A stretch of DNA of 64,000 bases. It comes from Roseovarius faecimaris (GTDB lineage: Bacteria; Pseudomonadota; Alphaproteobacteria; Rhodobacterales; Rhodobacteraceae). Shown piece by piece: positions 57,954 through 64,000 of the stretch. The notes beneath the pieces are model-generated. The model did not search any database. It saw only the letters and a list, made by a program, of their open reading frames with translations, and had not been told where the DNA came from. Positions within the stretch are counted from its first letter, which is position 1; each line of letters opens with the position of its first letter. The translations under genes and the position numbers were made by a program. The stretch covers positions 3,106,501-3,170,500 of the forward strand of contig NZ_CP034348.1 of NCBI RefSeq assembly GCF_009762325.1, written 5' to 3'.

Positions 57954-58826
57954 TCAGCCCTTGCTGCGGACCCGCTGACGCCAGAGCGTGAACAGCCCCG
58001 CCGCCACGACCAGGGCCGCGCCGAGCGCCACGTTGAGGCGGATGGTTTCGTTGAAGACGGTAATGCCCACCGCGCTGGCAAAGACCAGTTGCAGATAGGC
58101 AAAGGGCTGTACCGCGCTGGCCTCGGCCACCTCGTAACATTTGATCAGCGTATAATGCCCCAGCGCGCCGGTGATACAAAGTGCCCCCATCCACACCCAG
58201 TCAGACGCGATCATCGGTTCCCAGAACCAGATCCCGACCGCCGTCATCGCCACGCTGCCGACCGTTCCGGTCCAGAAAAAGCTTGTCGCCGCCGAATCCT
58301 TCCGGGCCACATAGCGCGTAAGCAGGCCATAGACGGCAAACATCAGCGCCGCCATCAGAGGCACCACCGCCTCGGGCTGAAACACGCCGAACCCGGGCTC
58401 CAGGATGATAATCACCCCGACGAAACCCACTCCGATGGCCGCCCAGCGGCGCCAGCCCACATGCTCTCCCAGGATCGGGCCGGACAGGGCCGCGATCAGA
58501 AGTGGATAACAGGCAAAGACCACGTGTGTTTCGATCAGCCCCAGAAGGGTGAAGCCCAGGATCATCACGCAAATCTCGGCCACCAGAAGAATGGCCCGAA
58601 ATCCTTGCAGGAATGGCTGCGTCGTGGCCGCGGCCGCGCGGATGCCCCCGGCCTTTCGGCTGGCCACGGCGATCACGAAGGCCGCGAAAAACCAATAGCG
58701 GATCATCACCACCATCAGCACGTTATACTCTCCCCCGAGATGGCGAGAGATGCCGTCCTGTACGGCAAAGATGAAGGTGGTGATCACCATCATCAGGATG
58801 CCAAGGCGCGTATTCTGTTCGGTCAT
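57954..58826 (-). CDS. EamA-family (DMT) transporter
   Basis: 290 residues, ten predicted helices in two EamA repeats: LGILMMVITTFIFAVQDGISRHLG, VVFACYPLLIAALSGPILGEHVG, SAVGITVFNETIRLNVALGAALVVAAGLF. The conserved DGISR and GE(x)VG motifs fit RarD/EamA exporters. Start overlaps the mnmD stop by 4 bases (ATGA), so they are coupled. Substrate unknown. Confidence 0.85.
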   Translation of the reverse strand: MTEQNTRLGILMMVITTFIFAVQDGISRHLGGEYNVLMVVMIRYWFFAAFVIAVASRKAGGIRAAAATTQPFLQGFRAILLVAEICVMILGFTLLGLIETHVVFACYPLLIAALSGPILGEHVGWRRWAAIGVGFVGVIIILEPGFGVFQPEAVVPLMAALMFAVYGLLTRYVARKDSAATSFFWTGTVGSVAMTAVGIWFWEPMIASDWVWMGALCITGALGHYTLIKCYEVAEASAVQPFAYLQLVFASAVGITVFNETIRLNVALGAALVVAAGLFTLWRQRVRSKG

Positions 58827-59500
58827 GGGCCGGGCTTTCGGGCAGTGGTCATGTGACGCTTGCGGCCATAGCCCGACACGCGGGTGACGTCAAAGCCTGC
58901 CGTCTCCAGCCCGCGCCGCACGAAGCCCGCCGCCGTATATGTCGCAGCGGTGCCTCCGGGGGTGGTGTGGCGCGCGACCTCGGCCATAAGCGAGGCTTCC
59001 CAAAGCTCGGGGTTTTTGGCCGGTGAAAACCCGTCGAGAAACCACGCATCGGCCCGGCCCTGCCAGGCGCTCAGCGTCTCGCGCGCATCGCCATGGATCA
59101 GGGTGAAATGCAGATCGGGCAGGCGAATGTCCTGCGCGCCGCGTCTCCAGAACGCGGCCAGCTCATCGGCCGGACCCGCCAGTTCGGAAAATGCCGCTTG
59201 CGCGCGGATCATCTCTTCTGCGCGCATCGGGTAGGCCTCGAAGGAGGTAAAGCGCAGCACACCCGGCACCTGTTGGGCGCGCCATGCCGCCAGCGTTGTC
59301 AGCAGGTTCAGCCCCGTGCCAAAGCCCAGTTCAGCCACGTGAAAGCCATCGACAAAGCGCGCGGGCAACCCGTTACCCGCCAGAAAAACATGGCGCGTCT
59401 CCGCCAGCCCGTTTTCAAGACTGAAATACGGGTCGTCAAACCGGGTCGAGACGGGCACATCGCCCGTCCGCCAGTCAAGCTCTGCGTGCTGGTCCTGCAT
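58823..59500 (-). CDS. mnmD: tRNA 5-(aminomethyl)uridine methyltransferase MnmD
   Basis: 225 residues, the methyltransferase part of MnmC. It adds the last methyl of mnm5(s2)U34 in tRNA. Seen: DWRTGDVPVSTRFDDPYFSLENGLAETRHVFLAGNGLPARF, SAM motif VAELGFGTGLNLLTTLAAW, LHFTLIHGDARETLSAW, ADAWFLDGFSPAKNPELWEASLM and AATYTAAGFVRRGLETAGFDV. ATG 59500 gives the full N-terminus; a longer frame runs into the divergent oxidoreductase gene. Divergent FAD gene may supply the other MnmC half. Confidence 0.9.
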   Translation of the reverse strand: MQDQHAELDWRTGDVPVSTRFDDPYFSLENGLAETRHVFLAGNGLPARFVDGFHVAELGFGTGLNLLTTLAAWRAQQVPGVLRFTSFEAYPMRAEEMIRAQAAFSELAGPADELAAFWRRGAQDIRLPDLHFTLIHGDARETLSAWQGRADAWFLDGFSPAKNPELWEASLMAEVARHTTPGGTAATYTAAGFVRRGLETAGFDVTRVSGYGRKRHMTTARKPGP

Positions 59501-59563
59501 GGGGCCTTCCGTTAGACAGGCAGGGAACACCCGCGACCATGCAGAGGAGTGCGCCGCTTGGCA

Positions 59564-60595
59564 ATGGCAGATGTCACCGTGATGGGGGCCGGAATATTCG
59601 GCCTCAGCATCGCCTGGGCGTGCCAGTCCAAAGGCGCGAAGGTGCGCGTAATCGACCCGGGCGGGCCGGGCGCCGGAGCCTCGGGCGGTGTGGTCGGGGC
59701 GCTGGCCCCGCATGTGCCGGAAAACTGGAACGACAAGAAGGCGTTTCAGCTCGACAGCCTGCTGATCGCGGAAGACTTCTGGCGGGATGTGCAGGCGGTT
59801 TCGGGTATCGATCCGGGCTATGCGCGACTTGGTCGGTTGCAGCCGCTGACCGATGCGGCGGCGGTCGGGTTGGCGCGGGCCCGCGAAGAAAACGCCAAGG
59901 GCCTGTGGCGCGGACAGGCCAGCTGGTCGGTCGTGGACGGGGGCGGTCATGACTGGGCACCCGTGTCGCCAACCGGCCTTCTTGTCCACGACACGCTGAC
60001 GGCCCGGCTGCACCCGCGGCGCGCCTGTGCCTCACTGGCCGCCGCCATTGCCAGCCGTGGCGGCGAGATTGCGCGGGACGGGACCGCAGAAGGCAAACGG
60101 ATCTGGGCCACCGGTGTTGCCGGGCTGGAAGAGCTGAACGCCGCGCACCACCGCACCGTGGGCAACGCGGTCAAGGGGCAAGGCGCGCTCTTGCAATTCG
60201 AGGCCCGCCACATGCCCCAGCTCTTTGCGGGTGGGGTGCATATCGTTCCGCATGGCGATGGCACGGTGGCGATCGGATCCACCAGCGAGCGTGACTTCGA
60301 CGACCCGACAGCCACCGATGCGCAGCTTGACGCGGTGATCGACGCGGCGATGCAGGCCGTGCCGGTGCTGCATGGCGCGCGGGTGATGGAACGCTGGGCC
60401 GGGCTGCGTCCGCGCAGTCGCTCGCGCGCGCCGATGCTGGGGTCCCATCCGCTGCGTGAGGGCGAGTTTATCGCCAATGGCGGTTTCAAGATCGGTTTTG
60501 GCATGGCGCCCGGGGTGGCGCAGGTCATGGCCGATCTGGTGCTGGAGGGTCATGACGCCATCCCGCAGGGTTTCCGCCCCGAAGCGTCGCTCTGA
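59564..60595 (+). CDS. FAD-dependent oxidoreductase, possible MnmC1-like
   Basis: 343 residues. DAO-type FAD fold: VTVMGAGIFGLSIAWACQSKGAKVRVIDPG (dinucleotide motif GxGxxG) and GAGASGGVVGALAPHVPENW at about 38-57, the GASG...GAL.P pattern of MnmC C-terminal domains; C-terminal GLRPRSRSRAPMLG and NGGFKIGFGMAPGVAQVMADL. Alternative: glycine oxidase/ThiO-like. Start uncertain among GTG 59549, TTG 59558 (best spaced from GAGGAG) and ATG 59564. Head to head with mnmD. Confidence 0.78.
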   Translation: MADVTVMGAGIFGLSIAWACQSKGAKVRVIDPGGPGAGASGGVVGALAPHVPENWNDKKAFQLDSLLIAEDFWRDVQAVSGIDPGYARLGRLQPLTDAAAVGLARAREENAKGLWRGQASWSVVDGGGHDWAPVSPTGLLVHDTLTARLHPRRACASLAAAIASRGGEIARDGTAEGKRIWATGVAGLEELNAAHHRTVGNAVKGQGALLQFEARHMPQLFAGGVHIVPHGDGTVAIGSTSERDFDDPTATDAQLDAVIDAAMQAVPVLHGARVMERWAGLRPRSRSRAPMLGSHPLREGEFIANGGFKIGFGMAPGVAQVMADLVLEGHDAIPQGFRPEASL

Positions 60596-61459: not shown

Positions 61460-61849
61460 ATGCAACCGCATGTGACCTCACTCGACCATCTCGTGCTCAC
61501 CGTGGCCGAGTTTGACCGGACAATCACCTTTTACCGCGATGTGCTTGGCATGGAGCTTGTCACCTTTGGCGCGCCTCCAAGATATGCGCTGCGCTTCGGC
61601 GTGCAGAAGATCAATCTGCATCTTGCCGGGCAGGAACTGGAGCCCAAGGAACGTGCGCCCGGGCCGGGCACGGCCGACCTGTGCTTTCTGACGGACACAT
61701 CCCTCACGGACTGGCAGGCGCATCTGACCAGACAGGGGATTCCCGTCGAAGACGGCCCCGTGCCGCGCACCGGGGCCGCGGGGCCGATCATGTCGCTTTA
61801 TCTGCGTGATCCCGATGGGAACCTGATCGAGATTTCCCAACCGGCTTAA
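61460..61849 (+). CDS. VOC-family (glyoxalase-like) protein
   Basis: 129 residues: SLDHLVLTVAEFDRTITFYRDVLGMELVTF, RYALRFGVQKINLHLAGQELEPKERAPGPGTADLCFLTD and MSLYLRDPDGNLIEISQP, the usual glyoxalase/bleomycin/dioxygenase fold with metal ligands His, His and Glu. Close to virulence-associated VOC proteins. ATG 61460 chosen. Its stop overlaps that of the convergent MEMO1 fusion by 4 bases. Confidence 0.85.
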   Translation: MQPHVTSLDHLVLTVAEFDRTITFYRDVLGMELVTFGAPPRYALRFGVQKINLHLAGQELEPKERAPGPGTADLCFLTDTSLTDWQAHLTRQGIPVEDGPVPRTGAAGPIMSLYLRDPDGNLIEISQPA

Positions 61850-63231
61850 ACGCCGTCAGGTTCGGAAAAACTCTCGGCACAGAACCGGTGCACCTGCACT
61901 GTATCGCTCCAGTGTTCACGCGGCAGACCGGCCTTGAGCTTGAGCCCATCGACAAACGCGCGTGGGGTTTCAAGACTGTCCCAGACCATCGGAAGAAACG
62001 TGCCGCGGTGACGCCCATCCGTGAGGATCAGACCGTCGCGGCCCGGGGTGAGCTGCGTTTCCAGATCGTCCTGACTGGAAAACCGCATCGCACGCGCCGG
62101 TGACAGGACCGCGATCTTGAGTGTCACGCCGTCCAGCTCCTCTGCCGTCAGAGGCGCAAAGCGCGGATCCTGAGAGGCGGCCTTGATCGCGTTTTCCACC
62201 ACATCGGCAATCAGCGGGCGATGCGCGGCAAGCGAGCCGATACAGCCGCGCAACCTGCCGGCGCTTTGCAGGGACACAAAGGCGGCGGCATGGGTCTGAA
62301 GTTCCGCCGCAAAGCTTGCGACCCGGACCTCGGGCATCCGCCCTTTGGCGAGATATGACCGCAACGCCTGGCGCGCGGCGGTCAGCATTGCACTGCGCAG
62401 CGGCGGGGCCAAGATCTCAGCGGTGCTGTCGTAAAGTCCCCAGGCACCGTAGCCCACCGTTCGGCTGCTGTCGCCTGTGGCGCGGTGGGAATTGGCCATG
62501 CCAAGCCGCTGCAGCCGCATGCCCTGACCGAAGCGGGAGGCCAGAAAGCCCTTGATCGCCCGCGACCCGCAGGCATGTGCCGGGGTGAGCTTGTGGCTCT
62601 GCCCCGTCTCGATCAGCTTCGCGGCCTCGGCATCATGTGCCCTGGCCTTGTCGAGGGTGAGAAAATGGCTCAGGTCGCTCGACAACACGAAAAGCGGCGG
62701 CTTCTCAGACCGGGTGGCCAGGTAGTCGACCAAGCGGGCAACATCATCGGCCGTGGCCCGACCGATCACCACAGGAATGATTTCAGTATCCGGATGCAGG
62801 TGATGAAGGAAAGGAAGCTGCGTCTCGATCCCATGTTCCTGATCATGGGCCGCGTCTTCGACATGGGCAAGCTTTGCGTCCACAAGCGCCGCGCGGGCGG
62901 CGGCGTCGATCTTTATGTCAAAGCCCGGCATCCGGTAGCCTGAGGCGCTGGGCAAAGCCAGACCGGCAAAGCCATGCCGGTGCGAGGGCGACAGGATCAC
63001 GGCACTGCGGGGGCTGGCGGATGCGGTGGCCGCCAGCGCCGCCCCGGCCAGATGACCCGAGAACCGATACCCCGCATGCGGCGAGATCACCGCACAGGGT
63101 GCTGCTGTCCCGGCCAAGGGCAGCGTCGGCAAAGCATCCTCGACCGCTTGCGCCAATCGGGCGGGTTCGGCGGGGAAGAACCGACCTGCCATCACGGCGC
63201 TGCGCGGGGTCTCTTTCACAGGGGGTGTCAT
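61846..63231 (-). CDS. Fused MEMO1-AMMECR1 protein (AmmeMemoRadiSam B-A)
   Basis: 461 residues, two domains. MEMO1-like part about 10-275: AVISPHAGYRFSGHLAGAAL with His52, HVEDAAHDQEHGIETQLPFLHHL, FVLSSDLSHFLTLDKARAHD, all metal-site-like residues of the MEMO fold. AMMECR1 part about 278-455, with the LRGCIGSL hexapeptide-type motif at 327-334 and VTLKIAVLSPARAM. The two are separate genes in many species. Works with the divergent radical-SAM gene as the AmmeMemoRadiSam set; biochemical role not established. The start at 63231 is taken since MAGRFFP is preceded by a normal short leader. Confidence 0.9.
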   Translation of the reverse strand: MTPPVKETPRSAVMAGRFFPAEPARLAQAVEDALPTLPLAGTAAPCAVISPHAGYRFSGHLAGAALAATASASPRSAVILSPSHRHGFAGLALPSASGYRMPGFDIKIDAAARAALVDAKLAHVEDAAHDQEHGIETQLPFLHHLHPDTEIIPVVIGRATADDVARLVDYLATRSEKPPLFVLSSDLSHFLTLDKARAHDAEAAKLIETGQSHKLTPAHACGSRAIKGFLASRFGQGMRLQRLGMANSHRATGDSSRTVGYGAWGLYDSTAEILAPPLRSAMLTAARQALRSYLAKGRMPEVRVASFAAELQTHAAAFVSLQSAGRLRGCIGSLAAHRPLIADVVENAIKAASQDPRFAPLTAEELDGVTLKIAVLSPARAMRFSSQDDLETQLTPGRDGLILTDGRHRGTFLPMVWDSLETPRAFVDGLKLKAGLPREHWSDTVQVHRFCAESFSEPDGV

Positions 63232-63280
63232 GCGGCTATCCTACGCCCGACCTGCCCGTTCGAAAACCCATGGGAGCGCC

Positions 63281-64000
63281 ATGCACCCCGGCAAATTCGC
63301 TCAAATGCAAGAGGATGGCCGCCTGCGCTGTGAGCTGTGCCCGCGCTATTGCAGCCTGCGCGAGGGGCAGCGCGGCATGTGCTTTGTGCGGATGCGCCAG
63401 AACGACGGGATGGTGCTCGACACCTATGGCCGTTCAACCGGATTCTGCATCGATCCGATCGAGAAAAAACCGCTCAACCATTTTCACCCCGGCACGCCGG
63501 TGCTGAGCTTTGGCACGGCGGGGTGTAACCTGGCCTGCAAATTCTGCCAGAATCATGAAATTTCGAAAAGCCGCGAGGTGGACAGCCTCGCCCATGAGGC
63601 CTCGCCCGCGCGAATTGCCGAGGTGGCCCGGACCCAAGCATGCACCGCCGTGGCGTTTACCTATAATGATCCGGTGATCTTTCACGAATATGCGGTGGAT
63701 ACGGCAATGGCCTGCCGCGATGCGGGGGTGAAATCCGTTGCCGTCACGGCGGGCTATGTCTGCGATGCTCCGCGTGCGGAGTTCTTTGCGCATATGGATG
63801 CGGCGAATATCGACCTCAAGGCGTTCTCGCCTGAGTTTTATCGCAAGCTCACAGGCTCCGAGATCGGCCCGGTTCTGGACTGTATCCGCTATGCCGTGCA
63901 AGAAACCGATTGCTGGGTCGAGCTGACCACGCTCCTCATACCAGGCGAGAATGACAGCGCCGCCGAGCTGGAGGCACTGAGCGCTTGGGTGCTGGAGACC
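63281..64000 (+). CDS. amrS: AmmeMemoRadiSam radical-SAM enzyme, 3' end beyond window
   Basis: First 240 residues of a radical SAM protein. An N-terminal Cys-rich segment C17-x-x-C20-x3-C24 with C34 (CELCPRYCSLREGQRGMC) precedes the cluster motif GCNLACKFCQNH (Cys82, 86, 89), which binds the 4Fe-4S cluster that cleaves SAM. TYNDPVIFHEYAVDTAMAC and VTAGYVCDAPRAEFFAHMDAANIDLKAF follow as in pyruvate-formate-lyase-activase-like AmmeMemoRadiSam proteins. Divergent from the fused MEMO1-AMMECR1 gene by 49 bases. No ribosome site is strong. Confidence 0.92.
   Translation, partial: MHPGKFAQMQEDGRLRCELCPRYCSLREGQRGMCFVRMRQNDGMVLDTYGRSTGFCIDPIEKKPLNHFHPGTPVLSFGTAGCNLACKFCQNHEISKSREVDSLAHEASPARIAEVARTQACTAVAFTYNDPVIFHEYAVDTAMACRDAGVKSVAVTAGYVCDAPRAEFFAHMDAANIDLKAFSPEFYRKLTGSEIGPVLDCIRYAVQETDCWVELTTLLIPGENDSAAELEALSAWVLET

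Follow-up and report, generated by a model that had tools for sequence, protein, structure and literature searches.

An AmmeMemoRadiSam system with MEMO and AMMECR1 domains in a single chain in Roseovarius faecimaris

The AmmeMemoRadiSam system comprises three protein families: protein A, related to AMMECR1 (amrA, TIGR04335), protein B, related to MEMO1 (amrB, TIGR04336), and a protein of the radical S-adenosylmethionine (SAM) type (amrS, TIGR04337). The window analyzed here, a 64,000-nucleotide stretch of the Roseovarius faecimaris genome (contig NZ_CP034348.1, positions 3,106,501 to 3,170,500 of the forward strand), holds a complete system of this kind, and thus adds a member to a system that is known but functionally orphan. 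As in the described system, all three parts exceed their family cut-offs and the genes are adjacent, arranged divergently with 49 bases between them. Proteins A and B form one chain here, which is a common form. The find is an ordinary one, its fusion being common rather than new, and the system is useful.

MEMO1 and AMMECR1 are both linked to human disease. In human MEMO1, iron is bound by H49, H81 and C244, with H131, D189 and H192 nearby (PMC11081632). The solved chain of human MEMO1 has no AMMECR1 part; human AMMECR1 and the archaeal proteins PH0010, MM0484 and ST0229 differ from the AMMECR1 of the window, which is fused to MEMO. The human disease mutation G177D falls in the LRGCIG motif of AMMECR1 (PMC5502304). 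In the bacterial fusion one chain carries both the iron site known from the human protein and the loop mutated in disease, which makes the fusion a handy test object.

Open-access passages that name AmmeMemoRadiSam are, to the extent available, annotation only; one of them gives the names amrS, amrB and amrA. Open-access papers that contain both MEMO1 and AMMECR1 name them in protein lists, or in a table and in the title of a reference, and "Memo-Ammecr1 systems" are mentioned in one sentence of PMC7159879. No substrate was found in the open-access literature, in agreement with the original prediction that it is not established. The same prediction took the set to be known by co-occurrence only. 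Its gene context was also analyzed before, reportedly by Burroughs et al. 2019, a study cited in PMC7159879 and PMC7694686.

The fused gene and its conserved sites

The fused MEMO-AMMECR1 gene (amrB-amrA fusion) lies at 61846..63231 on the minus strand and encodes 461 amino acids in a single open frame. In NCBIfam, AmmeMemoRadiSam protein B matches residues 10-263 (TIGR04336, 193.7 bits, cut-off 26), the MEMO domain at 62443..63204, and protein A matches residues 281-455 (TIGR04335, 193.4 bits, cut-off 99), the AMMECR1 domain at 61867..62391, both on the minus strand. Pfam Memo and AMMECR1 were also matched on the same chain. The radical-SAM protein, searched with a query that began at an upstream ATG and was one residue short at its end, matches TIGR04337 with 582.7 bits (cut-off 220) over profile positions 2-349 of 349. 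Because the E-values of the family matches run from 1e-57 to 1e-175, the matches are not due to chance. Both the identification of the three parts and the joining of the MEMO1-like and AMMECR1-like parts in one chain, as originally predicted, are thus confirmed. The host genome (3.93 Mb, two contigs) has a single match to each family.

The AlphaFold prediction of the fusion has a predicted local distance difference test score (pLDDT) of 94.9 and a predicted template-modeling score (pTM) of 0.86, and shows the chain as a well-packed two-domain fold. The linker, residues 264-280 (62392..62442, minus strand), is predicted to be ordered, with mean pLDDT values of 90 (residues 261-270) and 86 (residues 271-280).

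The metal site was located by aligning a profile made from 36 MEMO rows of bacteria to the sequence of 7kq8 (human MEMO1; profile 8-263). All six human site residues align with identical letters, which in the window are H52, H84, C221, H133, D186 and H189. By this alignment, the counterparts of the human iron ligands H49, H81 and C244 are H52 (63076..63078), H84 (62980..62982) and C221 (62569..62571), all on the minus strand. Of the 113 MEMO rows aligned, six without both ends were set aside, namely L196, which is degenerate, and five partial rows, and conservation was counted over the remaining 107. H52, H84, C221 and D186 are kept in every row, and H133 and H189 in 105. The two exceptions, L077 and L100, belong to genomes without the radical-SAM protein and have the AMMECR1 cysteine replaced by serine. 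These fusions with degenerate MEMO sites stand beside genes for a ZnuA-like zinc-binding protein, a NUDIX protein and a CDP-alcohol transferase.

The LRGCIG motif of the AMMECR1 half, residues 327-332 (62236..62253, minus strand), includes C330, which is present in 97 of 102 AMMECR1 rows. The five departures are L077, L100 and L196 (all serine), L083 (arginine) and one fragment. The genome of L196 also lacks the radical-SAM protein. No simple rule joins loss of C330 to absence of the radical-SAM protein, because the genome of L083 has that protein and other fusions without it keep C330.

The aspartate of the NSGDTAG stretch (D250; arginine in the window) was considered as the third metal ligand and ruled out by the alignment to 7kq8, in which C244 aligns to C221. 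It is an aspartate in 98 of the 107 rows. Residue 250 varies across the clade of the organism's own family, Rhodobacteraceae, and is also replaced in L072 and L096. The bacterial NSGDTAG region differs from that of human MEMO1, and the window departs from both. Aligned through human MEMO1, the window protein also differs from the LigB-type extradiol dioxygenases (DesB, 1,6-APD, LigAB). Their site of two histidines and one carboxylate does not occur in the window MEMO, the third position being the cysteine C221 and not a glutamate.

The radical-SAM gene

The first 240 codons of amrS occupy 63281..64000 on the plus strand. The gene runs beyond the window to a stop 348 bases past its end (L002:10348), giving 355 amino acids counted from the ATG at 63281. 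An alternative in-frame ATG lies upstream at 63230; the alignment to relatives fits 63281. Between this ATG and that of the fused gene on the minus strand (63231) lies an intergenic stretch of 49 bases (63232..63280), the divergent spacing given in the original prediction. A promoter-like site at 63215-63242 (9/12) is directed at the radical-SAM gene; one such site was found, as compared with 0.1 expected in shuffles.

The CX3CX2C cluster motif is CNLACKFC (C82, C86, C89; 63524..63547, plus strand). An N-terminal four-cysteine motif, C17, C20, C24 and C34 (63329..63382, plus strand), is invariant in 26 of 26 relatives in the class and, when the set is widened, in 71 of 71 rows. A second four-cysteine set, C299, C302, C325 and C328, lies at the C-terminus, outside the window, and is equally invariant among the aligned rows (26/26; 71/71). 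The N-terminal cysteines had been noticed earlier and are present at the positions then given. They are a trait of the family and are accompanied by the four at the other end. Both extra cysteine sets probably bind additional metal, as iron-sulphur or zinc.

The fold was assessed on a model of a relative, L111 from Thalassovita aquimarina, which is 70% identical in the best segment (pLDDT 91.5, pTM 0.91). In a structure comparison, the core of this model, residues 58-296 without both cysteine ends, has the fold of the pyruvate formate-lyase activating enzyme. An activase-like fold is thus predicted for AmrS. The likeness has limits: AmrS scores 54.6 bits against the PFLA cut-off of 231.75, far below it, and carries the additional four-cysteine parts at both termini.

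Several variants of the family were seen among other loci. Eleven (L218-L228) have a shorter radical-SAM protein of the family, as an extra copy in 9 of the 11 genomes; MEMO lies within 9 and AMMECR1 within 10 of the 11 stretches. A distant subfamily (L229-L231, about 280-300 bits) has the second N-terminal cysteine replaced by serine, and the genome of L230 (G503) gave no MEMO match. In L186, a 1038-residue frame shows no family match ahead of its radical-SAM part and looks like a chance frame. Selenocysteine was considered for ten TIGR04337 matches (367-397 bits) with one TGA and was rejected; in all ten the TGA lies one residue after the C-terminal GVW and is an ordinary stop. Two more matches bearing TGA (G459, G534) are of a different kind, and the TGA of G459 is also terminal.

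Co-occurrence, gene layout and fusion

Three profile searches were run over the same sample of 240 genomes of the class. Matches above cut-off were found for the radical-SAM protein in 36 genomes, MEMO in 40 and AMMECR1 in 42, and all three families occur together in 34. MEMO never occurs without AMMECR1 (40 of 40 genomes), AMMECR1 occurs without both partners in one genome, and the radical-SAM and MEMO families are strongly associated (Fisher p 9e-33). In a phylum sample of 398 genomes, 95 have both the radical-SAM protein and MEMO, 6 the former only, 10 the latter only and 287 neither; several of the genomes with MEMO only are less than 80% complete. Within the organism's own family, MEMO at 80 bits or more occurs in 7 of 149 genomes and is fused in all seven. 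AMMECR1 is listed for 429 of 524 archaeal genomes. At one locus (L105:5180-6967), an AMMECR1 domain is part of a 595-residue protein that has a hydrophobic stretch at its N-terminus and whose long C-terminal part matches no Pfam family; the genome (G201) has no MEMO or radical-SAM match.

Layout was determined by mapping the domains in 47 neighborhoods of the class sample and in 80 named loci, the best 80 of 585 confirmed relatives. Among the 41 class loci showing both domains, MEMO and AMMECR1 are fused in 33, counting L093 with its broken AMMECR1 part, and in separate frames in 8; L108 has the two in different frames. The best 80 relatives divide into 13 fused, 39 separate, 13 with MEMO and no AMMECR1 in the stretch, and 15 without MEMO, some of these absences being due to contig ends. 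In the 97 loci with the radical-SAM protein and MEMO in one stretch, the genes are divergent in 83, codirectional in 8 and convergent in 4, and in 2 they are single proteins. Thus the fused form is the usual one within the class, and the divergent layout is usual overall.

Fusion is a repeated event. In a tree of 110 MEMO rows, made by a quick method and with many weak branches, the fused and separate forms are interspersed and the label changes at least 17 times, or 3 times when the starred branches alone are trusted. The MEMO part of the window falls within the own-family clade of 7 rows (support 100).

In two genomes of one genus all three parts are joined, as a radical-SAM-MEMO-AMMECR1 protein of 875 residues (L066:5742-8369) and one of 882 residues (L109:1672-4320), each part scoring above its own NCBIfam cut-off. 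No prior report of this triple fusion was found in the open-access literature, which may miss the likeliest source. It had been predicted that fusion implies stable contact. The predicted packing of the two domains (pTM 0.86), the interspersed fused and separate forms and the triple fusion all support contact, short of proof. Since the single-chain fusion keeps both sites and the triple fusion fixes the stoichiometry, contact, metal content and radical chemistry are directly testable.

Candidate functions and neighboring genes

The favored reading, put forward tentatively at slightly below an even chance, is that MEMO-AMMECR1 is one metal-plus-thiol enzyme that shares a substrate with the radical step of AmrS. 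In the MEMO half, H52, H84 and C221 would bind a single metal ion, most likely Fe(II), with H133, D186 and H189 surrounding it. The AMMECR1 half would supply its LRGCIG loop, including the C330 thiol, together with the conserved D355, R357 and K433. AmrS would cleave SAM at the C82/C86/C89 cluster, and its radical would carry out one step on a substrate also handled by the MEMO-AMMECR1 unit. The extra four-cysteine sites of AmrS may serve for electron supply, substrate anchoring or structure. We infer metal binding in this chain, its contact with AmrS, the common substrate and the order of the steps.

A number of observations weigh against this reading. First, the radical-SAM protein is missing in 6 of the 40 class genomes with MEMO and AMMECR1, one of them only 78% complete, and MEMO is missing in 2 of the 36 class genomes with the radical-SAM protein, one of these having a divergent AMMECR1. 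In the own-family sample (six other MEMO genomes and the Thalassovita of L111), the radical-SAM protein is present in 5 of 7 and absent in 2. Neither side strictly needs the other, because each occurs without its partner in some genomes. Second, in two genomes (G082, G197) a long distance separates the radical-SAM gene from the fused one. Third, in a survey of 1067 open reading frames clustered around 128 loci, in which 20 neighbor proteins were scanned and most clusters had no annotation, no additional gene is widely shared among the neighborhoods, which therefore name no substrate. The widest clusters, judged by their representatives, were histidine-kinase domains (15 loci), an M17 peptidase (9) and a GGDEF/EAL regulator (8). 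Finally, no experiment on a bacterial member was found in the open-access literature.

The main other explanation, appreciably less probable, is that MEMO-AMMECR1 handles iron or copper, serving the metal sites of AmrS and other proteins, and does no metabolite chemistry. Human MEMO1 binds both iron and Cu(I), and PMC11081632 reports no dioxygenase activity on the substrates tried; the conservation of the MEMO ligands also fits this role. However, the AMMECR1 loop and the conserved second-shell residues resemble parts of a catalytic site, and metal-transport genes appear as single cases among the 20 scanned neighbors (ZnuA at L077/L100, CorA in L076).

More doubtful is a specific form of the shared-substrate explanation, in which the target of modification is a nucleic-acid base or an isoprenoid, as the gene-context analysis of Burroughs et al. 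reportedly proposed. The neighborhoods lend this little, no isoprenoid gene having been seen among the 20 scanned neighbor proteins (most clusters being without annotation). The sole RNA-modification neighbor among them, a Sua5/YrdC protein, belongs to a cluster present at 4 of the 128 loci.

Pyruvate formate-lyase activase makes a glycyl radical by hydrogen abstraction, and AmrS could act on AMMECR1 in the same manner, placing either a radical or a durable modification on the Gly-Cys-x-Gly of the LRGCIG loop. This is unlikely, a shade more so than modification of a base or isoprenoid. A peptide target would fit the placement of a related radical-SAM domain in peptide-processing systems (PMC7159879). 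However, the loop and its cysteine persist where no radical-SAM protein was detected (L072, L091, L096, L192) and in the human protein, and the GGE stretch of pyruvate formate-lyase activase is NDP in AmrS. Moreover, glycyl radicals are oxygen-sensitive and many of the hosts are presumably aerobic. If AmrS did activate AMMECR1, MEMO-AMMECR1 would be a metalloenzyme activated by a radical route and not related to the known glycyl-radical enzymes, and the human pair its activase-free descendant.

It is improbable that the two loci are independent or decaying in this organism. The patchy distribution in the own family and the loss of D250 in its clade would be consistent with decay. However, the metal and thiol residues mapped in the window are all intact, and the radical-SAM protein is found in the organism's own genome as well as in 5 of the 7 other MEMO genomes that were searched.

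The weakest proposal, that AmrS is the activase of an ordinary glycyl-radical enzyme and stands beside MEMO-AMMECR1 by accident, draws on the similarity of AmrS to activases in fold and sequence, and is contradicted by the genome counts: the host genome has no PF01228 match, PF01228 occurs in 2 of 36 class genomes with the radical-SAM protein and 9 of 204 without it (p 0.67), and in 8 of the 11 glycyl-radical genomes a weak activase-like match adjoins the glycyl-radical gene, as expected of true activases. The classical activase role is thus rejected on the lack of a partner in the host and of any association over the 240 genomes, and the genomes point to another job for AmrS. The shared-substrate enzyme remains the favored reading.

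Certain neighbors deserve mention in their own right. Beside the MEMO-AMMECR1 fusions of L072 and L096, which lack the radical-SAM protein, stands a protein of 571-573 residues without a Pfam match (L072:5619-7340, L096:3935-5650). It has an HENxHS pattern, reminiscent of M49 metallopeptidases. An L-serine dehydratase likewise adjoins both fusions.

In the window, a gene of the glyoxalase/dioxygenase superfamily (61472-61849, plus strand) converges on the fused gene, and their stop codons overlap. Further away, a gene for an MnmC2 tRNA methyltransferase (58826-59671, minus strand; 267 bits, cut-off 136) is divergent from one for an FAD oxidoreductase (59549-60595, plus strand), which has below-cut-off similarity to ThiO and MnmC1. 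The pair looks as if the bifunctional MnmC is represented here by two genes.
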